A stretch of DNA of 64,000 bases, taken from Flavobacterium franklandianum (lineage in GTDB: Bacteria > Bacteroidota > Bacteroidia > Flavobacteriales > Flavobacteriaceae). Position numbers and translations under genes: made by a program. Shown here in pieces: positions 30,275 to 42,790 of the stretch (the stretch's first letter is position 1; every line of letters starts with the position of its first letter). The DNA lies in assembly GCF_007097365.1 (NCBI RefSeq), contig NZ_VJZR01000002.1, positions 143,464-207,463 on the forward strand, in the 5' to 3' direction. The notes under the pieces were generated by a model that had not been told where the DNA came from, ran no database searches, and worked only from the letters and a program-made list of their open reading frames with translations.

Positions 30275-30590
30275 TTTATATATTTTTGAAAGCCAAAGTT
30301 ACAAAGTTTAATTTTACTAAATTATCTATTGTAACAAATAAAAACTTAACTTTAATTAAATTTAAATCTGTAGAGATAAAGACATAAAAATATTGATTCT
30401 ATTTTTAGATACATCTCACAAGAAATTATTCTTTTGATTTTATACCTAATGTTTCATAGTTTTACGACTCTCAAAGTATTAATTTATAACGAAATAAATA
30501 TTAACTTGCATAATTGTTTTCCAAATTACAATAATCACTTTATTGCCCCCTAAAATGATTATATGAGCAGAACCTATAATCAATATTAAA
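30275..30590. other. Divergent gap, dnaG / PAS kinase
   Basis: 316 AT-rich bases. The only signal I can support is the leftward dnaG -7 box at 30294-30301. I see no convincing promoter for the rightward kinase, no hairpin and no small ORF. Confidence 0.5.
30294..30301 (-). promoter_or_regulatory. -7 box for dnaG
   Basis: TAACTTTG on the minus strand fits TAnnTTTG. It lies 20 bases upstream of the TTG start of dnaG and supports that start. Confidence 0.55.
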
Positions 30591-33500
30591 ATGAATCCAG
30601 AAGCATATAAATTGTCTGATGCAATAAATTTTCAGCAAGAATTCAATGATATTTTATCATTCATTTCTGAAATATGCGAAGTACCTCATGTATTAATAAG
30701 TCAAGTAGATAATGAAGTCCCTATTATTAAGGCTCAAATAGGTCTGGAACTCAAATCTATTCCTCAAGAAATTGTATTAAATATCATTTCTGTTATTGAA
30801 CAAAATACAATTATAACAGTTTCAAAAAATAAAGTTTCTACAAAAAAATCCTTCGAATTCTTTATTGGTTTCCCTTTATGTAATGATGACAATCTACCTG
30901 TAAGAACCCTTTGCCTTTTTGACGTAAAATCCCGAAAACTTTCCTCAATCCAATTAAAAACTTTAAGTATTGCTGCAAAACAAATTCAATCTTTTTTAAG
31001 TCAATTTCAGAAAAACCAAGATCTTCTGAAACTGTTAAAACTAAAAGAAACCCAATTTCAATTATTTATTGACAATTCAAAAGAAATTTTTTACGAACTT
31101 AATACAGAAGGAGTCATCATCTATGTGTCGAATAATTGGACTACTTTTCTTGGCTATGAACTCGACGAAGTGATAGGTAAAAGCATCAGCTTGTTTTTGC
31201 ATCCTGAGGATTTGGAAATAGTTACTGCTTTTTTAAATAATAAAATTGAAATAGGGGAAAATAAAATTACCTATAGAATCTTGCACAAAGAGGGTCAGTA
31301 CACCTGGCACACTTCTAGTTTTAAATTATCAGAAAAAAATGGGGAAATTATTTACATTGGAAACTGTAGAGATATTACGGAACACATTGAAATACAACAA
31401 AAAATATTGCAACAAAAAGAATTTTATGAAAAAATACTAGATCAAGTCCCAACAGATGTAGCTGCTTTTGACCAAGATCACAGATACCTATATCTGAATC
31501 AAGCTGCCATAAAAGACAATGAACTTCGAAAATTCATTATAGGAAAAGATGATTTTGAATATGCAAAACACACTGGAAGGGATGATTCCTCGGCAAAAAA
31601 AAGACGTGCAAAGTTCTTGCAAGCTATGGAATTTAAAAATTTGATTCAATGGGAGGACTGCATCACTAGTCCATATACCGGCTTGACTTCTTATCACACC
31701 CGAAAATTGAATCCGGTTTTCCATAAAGATGGTACTTTTGAAATGATGATTGGATTTGGAGTTGACATCACCCAAAGCAAAAAAGCACAAGAAGAAATCC
31801 TTAAAAGCAAGCAACTTCTGAGTAGCATTATGGATAATGTTGCTGTCGGAATATTGGTGCAAGGGCCTGAATCTGAAATTTTGGAGAACAATAAAGCCGC
31901 TTGTGAAATGCTAGGTCTTACCAATGATCAATTGATTGGCAAGACCTCGTTTGATAAACTTTGGAAAATAATTCACCTTGACGGTTCCGATTTTCTTCCT
32001 GAAGATAATCCTGTGCCTATGGCAATTAAATTATTGAAACCGGTAAAAAATGTAGTTATGGGTGTTTATCGCCCCATTTCTATGGATATGGTTTGGCTTT
32101 TAGTTGATGCCATACCGGTATTTGATGACTCAGGAATATTGCTATATGTTGTATGCTCGTTTAATGATATCACTGAACTTAAAAAGATTGAAGACAAATT
32201 AAAAATAAGCAATGAGCGCTTTACATACTCTAGCGAAGCTACTTCGGATGCTATTTGGGATTGGAATATATTAAATGACGATATTTTTGTTGGAGCCAGC
32301 TATTCTAATCTATTTGGGCACAAGTTTAAGGACAATATGATTAAAGGTCAAGTATGCGAAAATTTTGTGCATCCAGAAGATAGAAAATCCTGTTTTATAA
32401 ACTTAGAGAATACTTTAAGAAATAAAACTATTACTAAATGGTCTGATGAATATCGCTATTTAAAATCAGATGGAAGTTATGCTTATGTTCATGATAAAGC
32501 AATAATAATTAGAGATGAAAAAGGTAAAGCAATCCGAATGATTGGAGCAATGCAAGACATCACTAACAAGAAAAGACTGGAAGATGAATTGAGGCAAAGT
32601 GAAGAGCAGTTTAAAGGAGCCTTTGAACATTCGCCAGTAGGAATGGCATTAGTTGACATTGAAGGATATTATACAGAAGTAAATGATATACTTTGTGAAA
32701 TGCTAGGTTATTCTAACCAAGAAATGAAATCATTAACATTTCAAGAAATAACATATTATATTGACTTAGAAGTTGACTTAGAACATAAAAAAAGTTTAGA
32801 TTCGGGCAACACTACCAACTTCAACTCTGAAAAAAGGTTTATTAAAAAAAATAATTCTCTTGTATGGACATACAATTCTGTTTCATTGGTGAAAAATAGT
32901 AAAAATGAAACCTACTACATCGTTCAAATCATTGACATCACAAAAAGAAAAGAAATAGAGCTTCAAAACAAATTATTAATCGAAGAGAATAATAAAAACA
33001 GAACCATTCAACTTAATGAGGCTAAAAATATGTATCGTTTTTTAGCAGAAAATTCAGTTGATTTAATATGTTTACATAATTTAGACACTTCATTTCAATA
33101 TGTTTCTCCTTCTGTCATAAACATCTTGGGATATACTCCTGAAGAAATGGTTGGAAAATCCCCTATGGATTATGCTCATCCTGAAGAATTAAAACACCTC
33201 CAAGACAGTTTTATGGGTTTTATTGACGAGAAAGTAAACGACTTCACGATTGCAAGATTTTTGAATAAAGATGGAAAATATATATGGCTGGAAACCAAAG
33301 CCAATATTATAAAAGAAAAAGGTGTAAATACAGGATTTCAGTCTAGTAGCCGTGACGTAACGACAAGGAAAATTGAAGAAGAAATTATTAAAAAAACCTT
33401 GGAAAAAGAAAGAGAACTCAATGAATTACGATCAAATTTAGTCTCTACCGTTTCCCACGAATTCAGAACTCCAATGACTACCATAAGAACAAGTGCTGAA

Positions 33501-34112
33501 CTGATTTCTATTTATCTTGAAGGTCAAACTTTTGAAAAAAAACCACGATTAGAGAAACAATTAATGACGATTACTGGAGAAATTGATAGAATAGTTGAAC
33601 TGATGAATTCAGTGTTAACCATTTCAAGAGATGATGCTGGAAAAACTAACTTCAACCCTGTTTCAGTTGATTTAAAACAACTTTGTATTGATGTAATTGA
33701 AACTAGTTTTGATAATCAGAAGGATGGAAGCAAAGTGCAAACATTTTTTAAGGGAACTAATTTTCGTGTTTTTGCAGATAAAAATTTGATGGAATACTCA
33801 ATTTTCAATTTATTAAATAATGCTTTCAAATATTCTGTAGGTTCTGGAAATATCCTAATGAACCTTTTGACGACCTCATCAAAAGTTGTTCTTGAAATTA
33901 TTGATTTTGGAATAGGAATACCTGACGAAGACCAACCTAAATTATTTAATACTTTTTTTAGAGCAAGCAACACCAATGGAATATCAGGGACAGGTTTAGG
34001 GCTTTATATTGTCAAAACCTTCACCGAAAAAAATTCAGGAAATATAAAATTAGAAAGCAATTTAGGAAAAGGAACTAAAGTAAGCTTGCAATTCCCTTTG
34101 CAGAAACCTTAA
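30591..34112 (+). CDS. Multi-PAS sensor histidine kinase
   Basis: A 1173-residue soluble kinase without transmembrane segments. A GAF-like N-terminus (about 10-145) is followed by six PAS units (roughly 155-270, 280-400, 405-535, 545-665, 670-785, 815-930), several ending in the typical GxxxDIT motif with PAC-type sequence. The HisKA H-box is STVSHEFRTPMTTIR, with the phospho-acceptor His. The HATPase domain has N-box LLNNAFKYS, G1 DFGIGIPDED and G2 GTGLGLYIV. No receiver is fused. It is monocistronic, lies divergent to dnaG, and may signal to the AraC-type regulator or the receiver-kinase protein downstream. The sensed signal is unknown; cytosolic cues such as redox or gas are typical of PAS arrays. 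Confidence 0.93.
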   Translation: MNPEAYKLSDAINFQQEFNDILSFISEICEVPHVLISQVDNEVPIIKAQIGLELKSIPQEIVLNIISVIEQNTIITVSKNKVSTKKSFEFFIGFPLCNDDNLPVRTLCLFDVKSRKLSSIQLKTLSIAAKQIQSFLSQFQKNQDLLKLLKLKETQFQLFIDNSKEIFYELNTEGVIIYVSNNWTTFLGYELDEVIGKSISLFLHPEDLEIVTAFLNNKIEIGENKITYRILHKEGQYTWHTSSFKLSEKNGEIIYIGNCRDITEHIEIQQKILQQKEFYEKILDQVPTDVAAFDQDHRYLYLNQAAIKDNELRKFIIGKDDFEYAKHTGRDDSSAKKRRAKFLQAMEFKNLIQWEDCITSPYTGLTSYHTRKLNPVFHKDGTFEMMIGFGVDITQSKKAQEEILKSKQLLSSIMDNVAVGILVQGPESEILENNKAACEMLGLTNDQLIGKTSFDKLWKIIHLDGSDFLPEDNPVPMAIKLLKPVKNVVMGVYRPISMDMVWLLVDAIPVFDDSGILLYVVCSFNDITELKKIEDKLKISNERFTYSSEATSDAIWDWNILNDDIFVGASYSNLFGHKFKDNMIKGQVCENFVHPEDRKSCFINLENTLRNKTITKWSDEYRYLKSDGSYAYVHDKAIIIRDEKGKAIRMIGAMQDITNKKRLEDELRQSEEQFKGAFEHSPVGMALVDIEGYYTEVNDILCEMLGYSNQEMKSLTFQEITYYIDLEVDLEHKKSLDSGNTTNFNSEKRFIKKNNSLVWTYNSVSLVKNSKNETYYIVQIIDITKRKEIELQNKLLIEENNKNRTIQLNEAKNMYRFLAENSVDLICLHNLDTSFQYVSPSVINILGYTPEEMVGKSPMDYAHPEELKHLQDSFMGFIDEKVNDFTIARFLNKDGKYIWLETKANIIKEKGVNTGFQSSSRDVTTRKIEEEIIKKTLEKERELNELRSNLVSTVSHEFRTPMTTIRTSAELISIYLEGQTFEKKPRLEKQLMTITGEIDRIVELMNSVLTISRDDAGKTNFNPVSVDLKQLCIDVIETSFDNQKDGSKVQTFFKGTNFRVFADKNLMEYSIFNLLNNAFKYSVGSGNILMNLLTTSSKVVLEIIDFGIGIPDEDQPKLFNTFFRASNTNGISGTGLGLYIVKTFTEKNSGNIKLESNLGKGTKVSLQFPLQKP

Positions 34113-34580
34113 AAAAGGGTTAAGTCATTCATTATTGATGGTGAAATAAATTAAAATAAACAATTAGTGAAATTGTTTGCGATTTCTGAATTTGAAGTAA
34201 ATGATTGATTCCAAAGGCGGATTGAAAGTGTTAAAAAGTTCTATAAATACAGAAAAATGAGACTGTTTCTGATGTAAATATGATCAAATTATAGTGTTGT
34301 GGATTTATTTATAGAACAGCAAAAAAGACTGATGGAACAAATGTTGCTGGGGTGTTTTAGCAGTAAGAATTGAACTAGTGAATCGATAAAGAGGCGCTTC
34401 ATTCCGAATCAAAGTGTATTTTATGAAACTTTTATTTTGGCCAATTCAAAATGTTGTAGAAGTTTATTTTTGGTTTAAAATAAGTGTAATAGTCAAAAAT
34501 AGTTGATAAAGAAGTGGTAAGTCGTATAAAACGAATGTTGTAATATTTCTAATTAGATTACATGAAAATTAAGAAATTAA
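34113..34580. other. Long gap, possibly a decayed gene
   Basis: 468 bases between the PAS kinase and the first small membrane protein. A + strand frame around 34293-34476 reads like protein (VDLFIEQQKRLMEQMLLG..) but is broken by a TGA at 34371 and closed by TAA at 34476. I cannot match it to a family. No RNA gene, repeat or strong terminator is seen. Confidence 0.3.
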
Positions 34581-35015
34581 TTAAACTTTTTTATAGTCAT
34601 TTTTAAAAAAAGAGACATAATATACGGCATAGGGTTCGTCTTTTTTTGACAATCTCAATTTCTTAAAACCTAATTGGCGCATATTAATATACAATACATA
34701 ATTGTAATTTTCTATCGAAAGAGAAATTATACTTAATGCTATAGTAATTATAAATAAAAAAATATTCCAGAGAGAATTTATTTCAAAATAATCAGTTAAA
34801 AAGGAATAAATTAATATGGTTAATAGGCATAAAAAGATGTTTATCGAAAAGTTTCTTTTTTTTAGAAATCTAACATTTGAAATTTCATTCAAGCTAAAAA
34901 CTTTTTCTCCCTCTTTATGATTCATAACAAAATGATTTTCATACAGACTAAAGAGTGACGTTTTTAACATGCCATACTTCGTGTTTTGAGCTTTATTTTC
35001 AAAAATTGTATTCAT
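34581..35015 (-). CDS. Small membrane protein, PH-like, paralogue A
   Basis: A 144-residue protein of unknown function. Short beta-like segments (LKTSLFSLYENHFVMNH, EKVFSLNEISNVRFLKKRN) are followed by two transmembrane helices (about 59-73 and 80-100) and a C-terminal strand-rich tail (NYVLYINMRQLGFKKLRLSKKD). This pattern, PH-like strands around a helical hairpin, recalls bacterial PH-domain membrane proteins, but that is inference. It is clearly homologous to the protein at 35661-36104: both share NFSLNEI/NLSEITNVR, KKRNF, SIENY(N/T)YVL and KLRLSKKD. It belongs to the duplicated cassette described at 34581-36700. Confidence 0.8.
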   Translation of the reverse strand: MNTIFENKAQNTKYGMLKTSLFSLYENHFVMNHKEGEKVFSLNEISNVRFLKKRNFSINIFLCLLTILIYSFLTDYFEINSLWNIFLFIITIALSIISLSIENYNYVLYINMRQLGFKKLRLSKKDEPYAVYYVSFFKNDYKKV

Positions 35016-35310
35016 AATTTTTAGGAAATATTATTTATTTCTATTCTGGACTCAAGCAGCTCATTAATTTCTTCGTCATTATCTCCAAATAACAATAATA
35101 AAATATAATTCAATAAACTGCAAAATGGCAAGGCATATATTCTATATCTTGACTCAAAAATATAATGTAAAATGATAAAAAAAATATTTTAACGTATGCT
35201 TTAAAAAAAAATGCACATAAGTTAAAATGCCATACATAAAACAATTCTGAAAAGATTTAATCCCCATAACTAAGAGTCATATAGAGTAATTATGTTTTAT
35301 ATTTTATAAG

Positions 35311-35565
35311 GATTTTATATAATCTCGTCTAGTAAGATCAATATAAGTATTAGTAGTTGCCGAAGAATAAAAAAACGAATTAAATCCAGTTTCATTCACT
35401 AAAAAATTGATGTTTCTTTCAACTAAATCAATAAGTTTAATGAGATATTATTTATGGGTAAGTTTCCTGATTTTTTTATCTAACGTTGATTTGCTAAAAA
35501 AAGGAAAGGTAATTAGTCAGTGATGATTTTTGATTTTAATAAATTAATAAACACTGGAAAACTCA
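35311..35565 (-). pseudogene. Remnant of an AraC-type response regulator
   Basis: Minus-strand translation gives pieces matching the C-terminal helix-turn-helix of the intact regulator next door. FFSKSTLDKKIRKLTHK ends at a TAA; then, after loss of about 14 residues (NITQYIREFKLEYA in the intact copy), LIDLVERNINFLVNETGF and SATTNTYIDLTRRDYIKS follow in frame. No receiver domain remains. A faint match at the nucleotide level runs to about 35565. It cannot make a working regulator. Confidence 0.85.
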
Positions 35566-35660
35566 TTTACTTCTTGAATAATAACTTAAAAAGAAGCAAG
35601 CTTTCAAATTATTATATCTTGACGCCATAATCGTTTCGCTATTATTGTAAAATCAAGTAT

Positions 35661-36104
35661 TTAACAATTTTTTTTCAAATAACCACTTTTAAAAACCGAA
35701 ACAAAATACAAGGCATAAGGCACATCTTTTTTGGACAATCTCAATTTTCTGAAAGCAAGGTGGTTCATATTAATAAATAACACATATGTATAATTCTCGA
35801 TCGAAAGAGAAACTAGACTTAATACTATAGTTAAAACAAATAATAAAATATTGCTAACAAAATCTCTAACACAATAGTCGGATATAAAAGAATAAATAAG
35901 AAGTGTGAATAACAAAAACAAGATATTTTTGAAGAAATTTCTTTTTTTTTGAAGTCTCACATTTGTAATTTCACTCAAATTAAAAACTTTTTTTTCGTCT
36001 TTGAGTTTAATGACTATGTGGCTATTATATAATGTAAATAAAGGCGTTTTGAGAACGTCATCCCCGATTTTATCCGCGCTTCCCAAAACTAAACTCATAC
36101 TCAT
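35661..36104 (-). CDS. Small membrane protein, PH-like, paralogue B
   Basis: A protein of about 147 residues from the ATG at 36104 (another ATG is at 36098; a TTG at 36125 would add seven residues). It has the same layout as paralogue A: LKTPLFTLYNSHIVIKLKD, KVFNLSEITNVRLQKKRNF, two transmembrane helices, then IENYTYVLFINMNHLAFRKL and RLSKKDVPYALYFVSVFK. Function is unknown. It lies 257 bases downstream of the intact AraC-type regulator in the same direction, which suggests regulation by, or common use with, that regulator. Confidence 0.8.
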   Translation of the reverse strand: MSMSLVLGSADKIGDDVLKTPLFTLYNSHIVIKLKDEKKVFNLSEITNVRLQKKRNFFKNILFLLFTLLIYSFISDYCVRDFVSNILLFVLTIVLSLVSLSIENYTYVLFINMNHLAFRKLRLSKKDVPYALYFVSVFKSGYLKKNC

Positions 36105-36360
36105 GACTATTACAAAATAATACAAAGTAAATCTTGCATAAAGCAGCCTATTAGTTACCTAAATACTTTTTCCCCCGAAAAACAATTTAATAAGCTGCAA
36201 TATGACAAGATTATTTAAACATCTTGGGACAAAACTATAATTTCACATTGAAAAAAATTAACAATTAATTAATATCTTAAAAAAAAATACTCATAAGTTA
36301 TTTATATGCCCGAAAACAATTCGAACAAGCCCTAATCAATATCAAAGATTGGTTAAAAGA

Positions 36361-37122
36361 TTAATCCTGTAAAGATTTTATATAATCTCGTGTTGTAAGA
36401 CCTACATAAGATTTAAAACTTGTAGAAAAATAAGAAAATGAGTTAAACCCTGTTTCATCAACTAAAAACTGAATATTCCTTTCCCCTAAATCAATAAGTT
36501 TAATCGCATATTCCAATTTAAACTCTCTTATATATTGAGTAATATTTTTATTGGTAAGTTTTCTAATTTTTTTATCTAACGTTGATTTGCTAATAAAAAG
36601 ATGAATTGATATTTCCTCAATACTAATTTTTGATTTTAAATTTTTTAAGATGAAGTCATCTACAGATTCCAGAAAATCTTTTTTGGATAATTTTATTGTT
36701 ACTTTAGAAAACGGATCCGGTTTGTATTTTTTTTCAATATTATTCCTAAGAACTAGTAAATTTTTGATTTTAAAAATCAATTCGTTTGCCTTGAAAGGCT
36801 TCATTATATAGTCATTAACCCCGTTTTCAAGCTGCTTGTACTTGACTCCGTCATCCATATTTGCAGTAATTATTATAAAAGGAATAGCGTTGAATTTGCT
36901 GTTTTTTCTAATTTTTGTAAACAATTCTCCACCGTCCATATGCGGCATCATCAAATCACTAATTATGATATCTGGCAAATAATTTTGCAGATAATCAAGT
37001 GCTTCCAAGCCATTAGTAAACCAATTCACTTTGAAATCACTTAACTGCAAAACCTCTGAAATTGAACTACCCAAAGCTAGATCATCTTCTATTAGCAGTA
37101 TTTCACTTTTTTTAAATTTCAT
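36361..37122 (-). CDS. AraC-type response regulator
   Basis: A DNA-binding response regulator of about 253 residues from the ATG at 37122; an ATG at 37143 would add seven residues. Receiver domain (about 1-125): acidic pair ILLIEDDLAL, phospho-acceptor Asp in IIISDLMMPHMDGG, Thr in FIIITANMDD and Lys in YIMKPF, all intact. The C-terminal AraC-family helix-turn-helix spans about 150-250 (SIEEISIHLFISKSTLDKKI, LVDETGFNSFSYFSTSF). It is divergent from the GAF/PAS kinase gene, 134 bases away, and these are the likely partners. A decayed copy of its 3' end is at 35311-35565. Confidence 0.93.
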   Translation of the reverse strand: MKFKKSEILLIEDDLALGSSISEVLQLSDFKVNWFTNGLEALDYLQNYLPDIIISDLMMPHMDGGELFTKIRKNSKFNAIPFIIITANMDDGVKYKQLENGVNDYIMKPFKANELIFKIKNLLVLRNNIEKKYKPDPFSKVTIKLSKKDFLESVDDFILKNLKSKISIEEISIHLFISKSTLDKKIRKLTNKNITQYIREFKLEYAIKLIDLGERNIQFLVDETGFNSFSYFSTSFKSYVGLTTRDYIKSLQD

Positions 37123-37255
37123 TATACGAAAATAAGTTACCATATTTTAAATTATAAGTTTATATTTTTAAATCATAAGTAATTACTCTTTATGCTTATT
37201 AATATCAAAATATCTTTGGAGGTATACAATTACTCCATAAAGTTACGCAATTATT

Positions 37256-39262
37256 ATGAAAAATCTTCTGTTAGGGATCTCAAATGCTAATAATCATCTT
37301 TTAAAAGAAATTTCGATTGACGAAGCGTTAAATTTGTGTATTACTGCAATTGGTAAAAGTCAGGATATTGACAGATGTTATATTTTTAAAAATGAGACCG
37401 AGAACGAAAAAGTGAAGTTATTTTACATCTACGAATGGTGCAATGAAGGTATTGATTCCTATTTGGGCAGTCCAGACTTAAATGGGCTTTCTTATGACAA
37501 TTTTCCGGGACTATATCAACCTTTGAGTAACGATATACCATTATATGGACTGGTCAAAAATAGCGACAACAAATTATTCGTAGAAACGATGGAAATGCAA
37601 GGAATAAAATCCTATCTTTTTACGCCTATATTTTCTGAAAACAAATTTTGGGGTTGGATTGGCTATGACGATTGCAAAACAGAACGAGAGTGGGCTGATG
37701 AAGAGGTTAGTGCATTGCATACTGTTGCTAAAAATATAGGGATTCGATTAAATCAAGATCAAACCAATGCAAAATTAGAAGCTCATTTAGACTTATTTGA
37801 TTTTTATCTAAAGGGCTCTAATCAAGGTATGTGGGAATGGAATATTATAACAAATATAGCTACTTTTTCTTATAATTATGCAGGAATGCTAGGTTACCGT
37901 TTAGAAGAAATAGACCAAAATTTCGAATTTTGGAGAAAAAATGTTCATCCAGATGAAATTATCCAAATTGAACTTGATCTAAGAGATTACATAAATGGCA
38001 AAACCAACAGTTATGGTGGAATAAAAAGAATGAAACACAAACAAGGCCATTATGTGTGGATAAAATATTCCGGTTTGGCTATAAGAAATGTTATTGGAAA
38101 CCCCATTAAGATTATTGGAACACATATAGACATTAGCGAGATAAAAGAAAAAGAACGCCAACTAGAGTTATCCGAGGAAAAATTTAGATTTATTGCTGAA
38201 AACACGACTGATCTAATTACCCAACGCTATAATGATGGAACTTTCTCCTATGTTTCGAACTCTTCTAAAGATATCATTGGATATAATCCCGAAGAATTGA
38301 TTCACCGTAGTCCTTATGAATTCATACACCCAGATGATCTGGGCCTAATGCAAGATTCTAGCCGAGAAATTCCAATAAAATTAGAACTAATAGCCACAAC
38401 TTATCGATTCAGGAAAAAAGACAACAACTATATTTGGCTAGAAAGCACCTCAAAAGTTATCCTTAATAACAAACAAGAAATTATAGGAATACAATCTTCC
38501 TCCAGAGATATTAGTGAAAGAATAAATGCTGCCGAAGAAATGAGATTAAACCTTTTAAAAGAAAAGGAACTCAGCGAATTAAAAACGAAGTTTGTTGCTA
38601 TGGCATCACATCAATTCAGAACTCCATTAACAATTATATATTCTAATGCAGAACTTATTGATATTAAAAGCAAGACAAATCTAAGAAAAGACACCAGTTA
38701 CTTAGAGCTAAATACTGAAAGAATAAAAAATGAAGTAGATAGACTTACCGAATTGATGAATAATATTCTAATATATGGAAAATATGAGTTAGAAGAAACA
38801 AAGAAAGATTTAAAAGAAATAGATTTTGTTATCTTTATAAAGAATATAATTGAAACTTATTTTAATAATGAAATTGATGGACGTAAGATAAAAATTTCAA
38901 TTAAAGGAGAAAAACAAAAAATTAGTACCGACGAAACCTTATTGATTCAAATTGTTACTAACATTATAGGAAATGCCTTTAAATATTCGGCAGGCAAACC
39001 AGAACCAGAACTAATCATAAATTATTTGGAAAATAAAATCAAACTCGAAATAATAGATTTTGGTATTGGAATTCCAGCAAAGGAAAAACAACATTTATTT
39101 ACTTCCTTTTTCAGGGCTACAAATACTAGCACAATTGTGGGATCGGGATTGGGGTTAACGATAGCAAAACAATTCACCGATCTACTTAACGGAAAAATAT
39201 CTATAAAAAGCAGAGAGAATTTTGGAACAACTATAACATTGATACTCCCTTATGAACAATAA
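37256..39262 (+). CDS. GAF/PAS sensor histidine kinase
   Basis: A 668-residue soluble kinase. GAF domain at about 10-165 (DEALNLCITAIGKSQDIDRC, FSENKFWGWIGYDDC); two PAS domains at about 180-305 and 315-430, both with PAC-type ends (GTHIDISE, QSSSRDISE); HisKA with the H-box AMASHQFRTPLTIIYSNAE; HATPase with N-box IIGNAFKYS, DFGIGIPAKE and GSGLGLTIAK. There are no membrane segments. It overlaps the receiver-kinase gene by 11 bases and is divergent from the AraC-type regulator. The three probably form a phosphorelay. Confidence 0.94.
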   Translation: MKNLLLGISNANNHLLKEISIDEALNLCITAIGKSQDIDRCYIFKNETENEKVKLFYIYEWCNEGIDSYLGSPDLNGLSYDNFPGLYQPLSNDIPLYGLVKNSDNKLFVETMEMQGIKSYLFTPIFSENKFWGWIGYDDCKTEREWADEEVSALHTVAKNIGIRLNQDQTNAKLEAHLDLFDFYLKGSNQGMWEWNIITNIATFSYNYAGMLGYRLEEIDQNFEFWRKNVHPDEIIQIELDLRDYINGKTNSYGGIKRMKHKQGHYVWIKYSGLAIRNVIGNPIKIIGTHIDISEIKEKERQLELSEEKFRFIAENTTDLITQRYNDGTFSYVSNSSKDIIGYNPEELIHRSPYEFIHPDDLGLMQDSSREIPIKLELIATTYRFRKKDNNYIWLESTSKVILNNKQEIIGIQSSSRDISERINAAEEMRLNLLKEKELSELKTKFVAMASHQFRTPLTIIYSNAELIDIKSKTNLRKDTSYLELNTERIKNEVDRLTELMNNILIYGKYELEETKKDLKEIDFVIFIKNIIETYFNNEIDGRKIKISIKGEKQKISTDETLLIQIVTNIIGNAFKYSAGKPEPELIINYLENKIKLEIIDFGIGIPAKEKQHLFTSFFRATNTSTIVGSGLGLTIAKQFTDLLNGKISIKSRENFGTTITLILPYEQ

Positions 39263-40352
39263 TAAAATACTCATTGTTGACGATGAACAGGATCTAAGAG
39301 AGACTATTACAGAACTACTTATTCACAACAATTACAACGTAAAAGGTGCTGCCAATGGTCACGAAGCATTAAAAATTTTAGATGAATGGATTCCAGATTT
39401 AATAATAAGCGACATAATGATGCCTATTATGGATGGCTATGTATTTCACGAAATAGTCAAAGAAACCAAGATTCTGAATCAAATACCTTTCATTTTTTTG
39501 ACCGCAAAAAACAATTCTGATGAAGTAGAGAAATGTACCTTAATGGGAGTGGATCATTTCTTGTCTAAACCTTTTAAAATCGATGATCTAATAAAAATTA
39601 TTGAAGTGAAAATTGAAAGATTCCTTAAAATAAAAAATGGGAATAGTAATCCAAACTTTAGCAATAACAAATACTTTTCACATGAAGTAAACACTCCTCT
39701 TCATGGAATTTTAGGTTCGATAGAACTTTTAATCAAACACAAAGAAAATTTCAAAGAGAATGAAATCAATATGTTTTACGATTCAATTAAAACATCCGGT
39801 ATTAGGCTAAACCGAACATTAAAAAATTCTATTCTTTATGATAATTTAAACAACGATAAACTTGATTTTATAAATGATTCATATACTGAAATACTAAATG
39901 AATTTTTAAAGGTCAAGAAAAAAATTACCGAAATTGATGAAACTCAGCTGGAAAGAATCCAATTTGATATTGATGAATCTGATATTAAAATAAAAGAAGA
40001 ATATTTGCATTTCATTCTTTTTGAATTATTGGATAATGCCTTGAAGTTCTCAAAAATGGAGGAGAAAATTATAGTCTCTGGCAAAAAATATAATTCCGAA
40101 TTCTATGAATTGACTATACAAGATTATGGAATTGGATTTAATGAAACACAACTAAAAGAAATCAATGCATATCAACAATTCGATCGTGACAAGAGAGAGC
40201 AGCAGGGATTGGGTTTAGGCCTTTTTATGAGCAAGACCTTTATGAAAAAAACAAGTGGCGTTTTTAGTATCATATCTCAAAAAAATGTGGGCACAACAGT
40301 CAAATTATTTTTTCCGTTACACATTAGTCAAACCGATATTCCCGTTCAATAA
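39252..40352 (+). CDS. Receiver-histidine kinase (reversed hybrid)
   Basis: A 366-residue protein with a receiver first (about 1-125; ILIVDDEQD, acceptor Asp in LIISDIMMPIMDGY, FLTAK, FLSKPF) and then a compact kinase: an H-box YFSHEVNTPLHGILGSIELL, N-box ELLDNALKFS, G1 IQDYGIGF and G2 GLGLGLFMSKTF. The reversed order suggests the receiver regulates the kinase, or that the kinase is read by the neighbouring HK. It overlaps the upstream kinase gene by 11 bases, so translation is coupled. A long palindrome at 40357 follows. Confidence 0.93.
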   Translation: MNNNKILIVDDEQDLRETITELLIHNNYNVKGAANGHEALKILDEWIPDLIISDIMMPIMDGYVFHEIVKETKILNQIPFIFLTAKNNSDEVEKCTLMGVDHFLSKPFKIDDLIKIIEVKIERFLKIKNGNSNPNFSNNKYFSHEVNTPLHGILGSIELLIKHKENFKENEINMFYDSIKTSGIRLNRTLKNSILYDNLNNDKLDFINDSYTEILNEFLKVKKKITEIDETQLERIQFDIDESDIKIKEEYLHFILFELLDNALKFSKMEEKIIVSGKKYNSEFYELTIQDYGIGFNETQLKEINAYQQFDRDKREQQGLGLGLFMSKTFMKKTSGVFSIISQKNVGTTVKLFFPLHISQTDIPVQ

Positions 40353-41544: not shown

Positions 41545-42243
41545 TTATTGATTGTTTCTGTTGACCAAAGCTTCTTTGGCTTCTTTGTATTTTTGGGTTA
41601 TGGTGTTTAATGCTTTTTCTCTAAATGAAACCTGCAATTCTCCGTCAACTTGATTTAATAAATCGGTTGAATTTATTTTTAATGTAGATGTTTTTAATTC
41701 TGATTTTTGGGTTTTTTCTGCCGAAGCTAGTAAATTGTCAATGTTTTCGTGGATTACATTTTTATTTTCTTCAATTTGTAAGTTTAGATTATTGAGTTGA
41801 ATTTCAGCTACAGCATTTTCCTGAGTTTTAAATGTTGGATTTTCAACATTGCTTTTAGTATTTTTTTGAGTTTGAACCAATGGTTTTGTTTCTGACTTTA
41901 ATATAGTTTTAGAAAAATTAGGCTCTATTTTTATTGACTTAATTTCAGTTTTTGAACTTTCTTTTTGGCTTGTGTTATCAGTTAGAACAGTATTTTTTTT
42001 AATGTCAATTGCATTTTCTTTTTGATTAAAAAAAATTGTTGTAATCAATAAAAACCCAATAAAACTGGCTGCAATATAAAGCCAACTGAACTTGCTTTTA
42101 GGTTTTTGCAACGCCTGTTCGCTATCGGTAGAGTCTGCTGTTGAAAGCATTGAATCCAGCTTATCCCAAGCCATTTCTGTTGGTTTGATTTCACGAGAAT
42201 TCAATTTTTCCTTGAATTGTGTTTCTAATTTATGCTGTTCCAT
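41545..42243 (-). CDS. Anti-sigma factor-like membrane protein
   Basis: A 232-residue protein with one transmembrane helix (about 52-68, FSWLYIAASFIGFLLITT). The cytoplasmic N-terminus (about 50 residues) has the EMAWDKLDSML motif seen in many Bacteroidota proteins encoded next to ECF sigma factors; the periplasmic part is Lys/Thr/Asn-rich and of low complexity. It overlaps the sigma gene by 14 bases. No zinc-binding HxxxCxxC is seen. The coding sequence contains an in-frame copy of the short dispersed repeat (42113-42135), read as TDSEQAL. Confidence 0.85.
   Translation of the reverse strand: MEQHKLETQFKEKLNSREIKPTEMAWDKLDSMLSTADSTDSEQALQKPKSKFSWLYIAASFIGFLLITTIFFNQKENAIDIKKNTVLTDNTSQKESSKTEIKSIKIEPNFSKTILKSETKPLVQTQKNTKSNVENPTFKTQENAVAEIQLNNLNLQIEENKNVIHENIDNLLASAEKTQKSELKTSTLKINSTDLLNQVDGELQVSFREKALNTITQKYKEAKEALVNRNNQ
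42113..42135 (+). repeat. Short dispersed repeat, copy 4, inside the anti-sigma gene
   Basis: GCCTGTTCGCTATCGGTAGA followed by GTC. It reads on the coding strand as S-T-D-S-E-Q-A, closely like the P-S-N-S-E-R-A encoded by the copy in gldC. It lies just before the transmembrane helix of the protein, in a part that may tolerate insertion. The right half (GGTAGAG) has diverged from GCTCGGG. Confidence 0.5.
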
Positions 42244-42790
42244 TGCTATAATTTTTTAGCGTCAGTATTTGCTCTTTCAATATTTTTCGAGCGTGTGACA
42301 ATTGCGATTTCGACGTTCCTTCGTTAATGCCTAGCATACTCGAAATTTCCTTGTGTTTGTAGCCTTCTATCGCATACAAATTGAAAATTATTTTGTATCC
42401 GTCGGGTAAACTGTCTATTAAAAACTGAATATCTTCGACAGAAAATTGACTTTCAATGTTGTTAAAACTGTCCTCAAAGTAATGTTCCTCTTCCAGAAAA
42501 CTAACTTTTTTATGAACTCTGATTTGCGAAATACATTCGTTGACCATAATTCGTCTAATCCAACCTTCAAAACTTCCTTTTTTTTCAAAATTTTTCAAAT
42601 TGGTAAACACTTTCATAAAAGCGGTAATCATTATGTCTTCGGCTTGATGAATGTCCTTTATATATTGCCGGCACACACTTAACATTTTCGGGGAAAATTT
42701 GGCGTAAATCTTTTGTTGGGCAGATCGATTGTTCTCGATTGCCAAACGAATGTTTTCATTTTCTTCCTGGTTAAAGTGAATTACTTTCAA
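42230..42790 (-). CDS. ECF-type RNA polymerase sigma factor
   Basis: A 186-residue sigma-70 family group 4 factor. Region 2 is at about 25-95 (YIKDIHQAEDIMITAFMKVF, GSFEGWIRRIMVNECISQIR) and region 4 at about 120-175 (LPDGYKIIFNLYAIEGYKHK, SSMLGINEGTSKSQLSHARK). The start is TTG at 42790; no suitable ATG exists before region 2. It is first in a three-gene operon with the anti-sigma and outer-membrane protein genes, behind a promoter at 42818-42847 that it may itself recognise. Confidence 0.95.
   Translation of the reverse strand: MKVIHFNQEENENIRLAIENNRSAQQKIYAKFSPKMLSVCRQYIKDIHQAEDIMITAFMKVFTNLKNFEKKGSFEGWIRRIMVNECISQIRVHKKVSFLEEEHYFEDSFNNIESQFSVEDIQFLIDSLPDGYKIIFNLYAIEGYKHKEISSMLGINEGTSKSQLSHARKILKEQILTLKNYSNGTA

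Follow-up and report, generated by a model that had tools for sequence, protein, structure and literature searches.

The window analyzed here is a 64,000-nt stretch of the Flavobacterium franklandianum genome (contig NZ_VJZR01000002.1, positions 143,464 to 207,463). Between two histidine kinase genes it contains two head-to-tail units, each made up of one gene for a small membrane protein (MP), the DNA upstream of it, and the terminal (3') part of a gene for an AraC-type response regulator. Alignment of the two units with blastn (34565-35539 against 35649-36639) gave 67.2% identity over 1027 columns (E 1.6e-87), which confirmed the duplicated cassette proposed in an initial annotation of this DNA. 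About 109 bp between the units (35540-35648) falls outside the alignment. The intergenic DNA described there as shared is indeed common to both units, but the annotation missed an RNA element and a promoter box inside it, which together form the best-conserved part of the unit. The features of the locus are as follows.

30591..34112, plus strand: HK1, a multi-PAS histidine kinase (Pfam)
34118..34204, plus strand: decayed start of a single-receiver gene (blastn; the gene is whole in relative L020)
34565..35539, no strand: left copy of the unit (blastn against 35649-36639)
34581..35015, minus strand: MP1, a 144-aa membrane protein, frame open, 53.8% identical to MP2
35042..35136, minus strand: degenerate left copy of the hairpin RNA (9.3 bits, E 0.31, with filters off only)
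35155..35162, minus strand: -7-like element TATTTTTG of the MP1 promoter (TAnnTTTG-like)
35187..35225, minus strand: 39-bp MP1 promoter box (second-best of 29,926 positions, matrix without its own clade)
35307..35501, minus strand: remnant of the regulator helix-turn-helix, with one stop and 33 bp lost (tblastn and codon alignment)
35649..36639, no strand: right copy of the unit (blastn), its upstream end within the regulator gene
35661..36098, minus strand: MP2, a 145-aa membrane protein, frame open, with an in-frame ATG also at 36104
36129..36210, minus strand: intact hairpin RNA (covariance model 46.2 bits, the sequence being in the seed; fold z -5.67)
36230..36237, minus strand: -7-like element TAGTTTTG of the RNA/MP2 promoter (TAnnTTTG-like)
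36263..36301, minus strand: 39-bp RNA/MP2 promoter box (best of 29,926 positions, matrix without its own clade)
36361..37122, minus strand: intact AraC-type response regulator, receiver plus helix-turn-helix (Pfam Response_reg 1.4e-25, HTH_18 3.1e-12)
37147..37184, plus strand: promoter box between the divergent regulator and HK2 genes, pointing towards HK2 (ranked third among 29,926 positions; genome-wide E 0.04)
37256..39262, plus strand: HK2, a GAF/PAS histidine kinase (Pfam)
39252..40352, plus strand: receiver-kinase protein (Pfam)

Both domains of the right regulator score above their Pfam cut-offs, which identifies it as an AraC-type response regulator; a PADLOC search with it returned weak matches only. 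The left copy is a remnant that matches the helix-turn-helix part of the right regulator over 64 codons, with DNA homology extending to about 35539. The stop directly after KKIRKLTHK was as first described, but the supposed 14-residue loss is 11 residues net in the alignment. Of the regulator, the duplication took in only about residues 162-251, and we found no receiver part in the left unit; therefore, the dead remnant, read earlier as one decayed regulator copy, may have been born truncated instead of having decayed from a whole gene. The related proposal, that selection keeps two MPs and only one regulator, holds as a description of two MPs and one intact regulator, but the lone intact regulator may simply reflect a breakpoint within the regulator gene.

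Orthologs of the regulator (E 1e-60 or better) occur at 46 places in 45 of 398 Flavobacterium genomes. We compared 41 loci, namely the window and 40 of the 45 other places (G377, G366, G247, G282, and G182 were left out). The usual gene order is dnaG, HK1, single receiver, MP, regulator, HK2, and receiver-kinase, with many variants. The single-receiver gene is intact behind HK1 in L020 and in many other loci and is lost in the window, where tblastn with the intact L020 protein found nothing at 34118-34204. MP-like genes were found at 24 of the 41 loci (26 genes, some weak; that of L091 was recovered by tblastn), so this protein family does occur beside such regulators in other genomes. The MP gene lies upstream of HK1 in four loci (L068, L084, L088, and, as an extra copy, L090). 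HK1 was split into several open frames in L024 and L026, which implies that HK1 decays there while the RNA, MP, and regulator stay.

The duplication looks lineage-specific. A scan of genome contigs found one relative (BC.034, which is L020 and probably the same locus as L083), and it carries the same island with a single MP. Two MP copies are present at only 2 of the 41 loci, the window and L090. A tree built from 24 MPs joins MP1 and MP2 as sisters with support of 93/89, slightly below the tool's starred level. Across the regulator remnant, pS is 0.40 against the window regulator and 0.63 against the L020 regulator, compared to 0.49 between the full window and L020 regulators in the same region, and these values imply that the unit was probably duplicated after the window and L020 lineages had separated. 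Both MPs and both boxes have been kept since the duplication, and one RNA and one regulator are intact.

Both MP frames are open, as initially reported, and dN/dS between them is ~0.30 at dS ~1.06, so both proteins look constrained; the MP evolves faster than the regulator, for which dN/dS between the window and L020 is 0.07. Neither MP matched Pfam or NCBIfam above any cut-off. DUF6232 (PF19744) overlaps the MPs weakly at about residues 28-113 (E 0.07 and 0.23), at 12.4 and 14 bits compared to a gathering threshold of 27.4. An AlphaFold model of MP2 built with 11 relatives (pLDDT 80.5, pTM 0.62) consists of four strands, a hydrophobic hairpin (residues 56-75 and 80-99), two strands, and a C-terminal helix. 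Its structural neighbors, among the 50 displayed, are mostly PH/PTB folds with Z of 6.5-8.3, middling by the tool's grading, and include the bacterial PH domains 3dcx and 3hsa (both Z 8.2). The PH-like fold guessed in the initial annotation thus agrees with the predicted structure at middling Z values, but the best PDB E-value in a Foldseek search was only 0.24. We regard the modeled MP as a likely PH-like domain with an inserted transmembrane hairpin. Searches of PADLOC-DB (E up to 0.1) with MP1, MP2, and the L086 MP gave no match to anti-phage defence proteins, a viral structure library gave no named relative (best E 0.018), and a plasmid search with MP2 gave no match. Strongly hydrophobic segments are absent from HK2 and the receiver-kinase, and HK1 has a single borderline one, so the MP may serve as the membrane arm of a system that is otherwise cytosolic.

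The RNA upstream of MP2 is a hairpin of ~90 nt in which an outer helix is followed by an inner one built around an invariant CAG/CUG and then by an AU-rich hairpin whose loop is G-rich, mostly GGGG. Covariation was scored over 25 pairs in 24 sequences (22 distinct). In this set 91.8% of cells are paired and 13 of the 25 pairs have changed on both sides, for a structure drawn from one member, which is somewhat favored thereby. None of 500 shuffles reached any of five measures, and slid controls paired at 36-53%. Across the pairs, 68 cells are G-U compared to 7 that are A-C, and therefore the MP-sense strand is the working strand. In the left unit mainly the inner helix still folds, and the whole-fold z is -1.21.

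At E 0.001 the RNA model had a single match in each of 26 of the 398 Flavobacterium genomes, and all 26 are among the 45 with the regulator (hypergeometric 6e-29 if genomes are taken as independent, which they are not). Two of the 26, L022 and L068, lie outside the model seed and score 67 bits. This covariation and co-occurrence mark a structured RNA that is conserved and linked with the regulator. Among 397 genomes sampled across the family (237 genera; a few of the genomes are Flavobacterium), only the genome of the window was matched; both the genus and the family searches used stricter filters, with which weak matches are lost. Rfam 15 had no match in window positions 34000-38000 (E up to 1), and in four relatives it gave just a sub-threshold AdoCbl-II match, elsewhere in L090. 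A candidate second RNA upstream of HK1 (30501-30571, minus strand) was rejected at 20.2 bits, genome-wide E 7, and z -0.88; its position, between dnaG and HK1, is one at which other species have an MP gene, and it is perhaps an old relic, perhaps chance.

An MP gene stands behind the RNA in 17 of the 26 genomes (the window, L065, L067, L075, L076, L083, L086, L087, L089-L092, L094, L096-L098, and L022). The gap from hairpin to MP start is 23-31 nt in 13 of these, with the window gap measured to the ATG at 36104 and that of L091 read directly off the sequence; in the remaining four it is 15 (L022), 51 (L075), 52 (L083), and 104 nt (L092, start uncertain). No MP gene lies directly behind the RNA in the remaining nine (L063, L066, L068, L088, L095, and L099-L102), where the RNA nevertheless scores 67-99 bits, in seven of them at least 83 bits and among the best overall. 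Retention at such scores without an MP behind implies a probable role for the RNA itself. Of these genomes, six look closely related, so the independent losses number fewer than nine. In G110, box, RNA, and MP are found together at a distance from the regulator, in a locus of exopolysaccharide type.

Upstream of the RNA, a conserved 39-bp block is followed by an element like the Bacteroidetes -7 consensus, TAnnTTTG. The block has a repeat-like pattern, TTAAnTTAT and TTAAnnTAT ~21 bp apart. A box of at least 10 bits lies within 350 nt of 18 of 26 MP genes compared to 8 of 370 other genes, with the proviso that AT richness may raise the box scores of intergenic DNA over those of coding DNA; in 14 of the 18, the box starts 194-223 nt before the start codon. 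Two of the eight other boxed genes belong to the regulator/HK region, another is a small transmembrane ORF, and three encode short proteins in the position of an MP. For the remaining 8 of the 26 MP genes, no box reaches 10 bits. Scored with matrices that left out each clade in turn, the regulator/HK2 region, which was never in training, holds a top-four site in 35 of the 41 loci and, in 25, one of at least 5 bits; 10 of the 35 sites score below 5 bits, three of them negatively, and L063, L065, L074, L088, L090, and L102 have no top-four site there. A box of at least 8 bits facing the regulator gene itself was found in none of the 41 loci. Because a box lies in the MP promoter, an output role is more likely for the MP than that of a sensor, which narrows the initial suggestion that these proteins are sensors, outputs, or partners of the kinases.

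Genome-wide, the regulator/HK2 box of the own genome (E 0.04) is outranked by one unrelated site, and the two best sites are in the seed. In 12 relatives, the strongest sites lie mostly in the island and weaker ones are scattered elsewhere; G153 has one off-island site at E 4e-5. Off-island boxes (two in the own genome and those in six regions of relatives) had no common extra target except the relocated MP of G204. A short motif, ATAAGT, was too crude by itself and looked poorly conserved; the 39-bp alignment superseded it.

Other small genes were seen around these islands. Short proteins behind a box, with an MP-like layout, occur in L069 (2745-3167), L078 (7865-8311), and L082 (7858-8313), the last two numbered in the orientation used in the analysis. 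They fail the MP profile, were left out of the MP count, and are possibly distant MPs; that of L078 has no transmembrane segment at threshold. In 13 of 20 loci looked at, a small ORF (~48-79 aa, one hydrophobic segment) lies between regulator and RNA, just downstream of the regulator (L067, L076, L086-L092, L094, L095, L097, and L101). Several start with a motif like IRPSxxxWxKLD, some, as in L067, L087, and L097, also have a box ahead of them, and two searched against Pfam had no match. Further along the window, an ECF-like sigma factor (41545-42243, minus strand; Sigma70_r2 and r4_2) is followed by another protein (42230-42790, minus strand), which may be anti-sigma-like and whose N-terminus, IKPTEMAWDKLDSML, resembles the small-ORF motif by eye.

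Duplication, RNA covariation, a common box, and linkage are all present at the level of sequence. On these grounds we think it probable that a local two-component system has the duplicated unit as its output cassette, switching on the RNA and the MP. The PAS kinases (HK1, HK2, and the receiver-kinase) would pass phosphate to the AraC-type response regulator, which would bind the box upstream of the -7-like element and switch on transcription of the ~90-nt hairpin RNA together with the MP. The box in the regulator/HK2 promoter would raise HK2 as well and so close a feedback loop. The MP would act at the membrane through its predicted PH-like domain, split by the transmembrane hairpin. In the window lineage, the cassette and the regulator 3' end would have been copied in tandem, after which the RNA of the left unit degenerated and its piece of the regulator was dead, so that MP would have been doubled under one switch and a single RNA stayed.

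The observations admit other explanations. That the inverted repeat is a DNA element, such as a protein site or mobile repeat, is very improbable: inverted repeats can be DNA sites, and the whole box-RNA-MP unit is at another place in G110, but the excess of G-U over A-C cells, the single copy in each of the 26 genomes, and the constant position behind a promoter-like block all argue against it. We also consider it unlikely that the locus is an ordinary tandem duplication in neutral decay, with regulator, RNA, and MP as functionally unconnected neighbors. Tandem copies and remnants are common, a dS near 1 allows time for decay, and one MP suffices in nearly all relatives; against this stand the two open MP frames with their dN/dS ~0.3, the retention of both boxes, and the confinement of the RNA to regulator-bearing genomes.

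That the hairpin is solely a cis-acting leader of the MP gene, working by attenuation or translation control and having no role of its own, we regard as possible, though somewhat doubtful. The MP gene behind the hairpin in most RNA-bearing genomes, the narrow range of most gaps, and the joint move of RNA and MP in G110 are as expected for a leader. The strong RNAs of the nine genomes without an MP directly behind, even counting the relatedness of six, and the retention of MP1 despite its degenerate RNA copy are not. In the output cassette that we propose, the RNA may act in trans, in cis on the MP, or both, and its retention without an MP favors some independent role. A broader reading, which we put forward tentatively, is a module so far limited to Flavobacterium, in which a regulator with very few targets would act mainly on a single trans-acting hairpin RNA and a membrane-anchored PH-like protein, on a mobile and duplicable cassette with exactly one working RNA and a varying number of MPs. 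The loop, which stays G-rich while the stem covaries, is consistent with a trans-acting hairpin.

In the papers searched on flavobacterial RNAs and regulators we found no description of this cassette, and the hairpin RNA, its arrangement, and the predicted PH-transmembrane partner appear to be new. What had been an unknown membrane protein beside a regulator becomes a testable circuit, with a defined box, a strongly covarying RNA unmatched by Rfam over the stretches searched, and an output predicted to be PH-like and membrane-bound. Natural test cases are available in species whose RNA is not followed by an MP, in MPs that lack the RNA, and in the tandem copy of the window.

Response regulators that drive small RNAs are a known kind of system, as in GacS/GacA with RsmY/RsmZ. 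The cassette may be likened to that system in its predicted phosphorelay beside a structured RNA gene, its common upstream promoter box, and its G-rich loops; unlike it, the cassette has an AraC-type regulator, a genus-limited RNA that adjoins the regulator gene, and an MP behind the RNA. Rfp18 of Flavobacterium psychrophilum is likewise a structured flavobacterial small RNA conserved beyond one species; it has at least three stem-loops and wide conservation in the genus, as described (PMC9723704), in contrast to the single two-part hairpin in 26 of 398 genomes, although the two may be one and the same RNA. The predicted fold of the MP resembles, at a middling Z of 8.2, the bacterial PH domains of PF08000/DUF1696, to which 3dcx and 3hsa belong (PMC2817789). 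The MP differs from them in its inserted transmembrane hairpin and its lack of a sequence match, and its DUF6232 overlap is as weak as given above.
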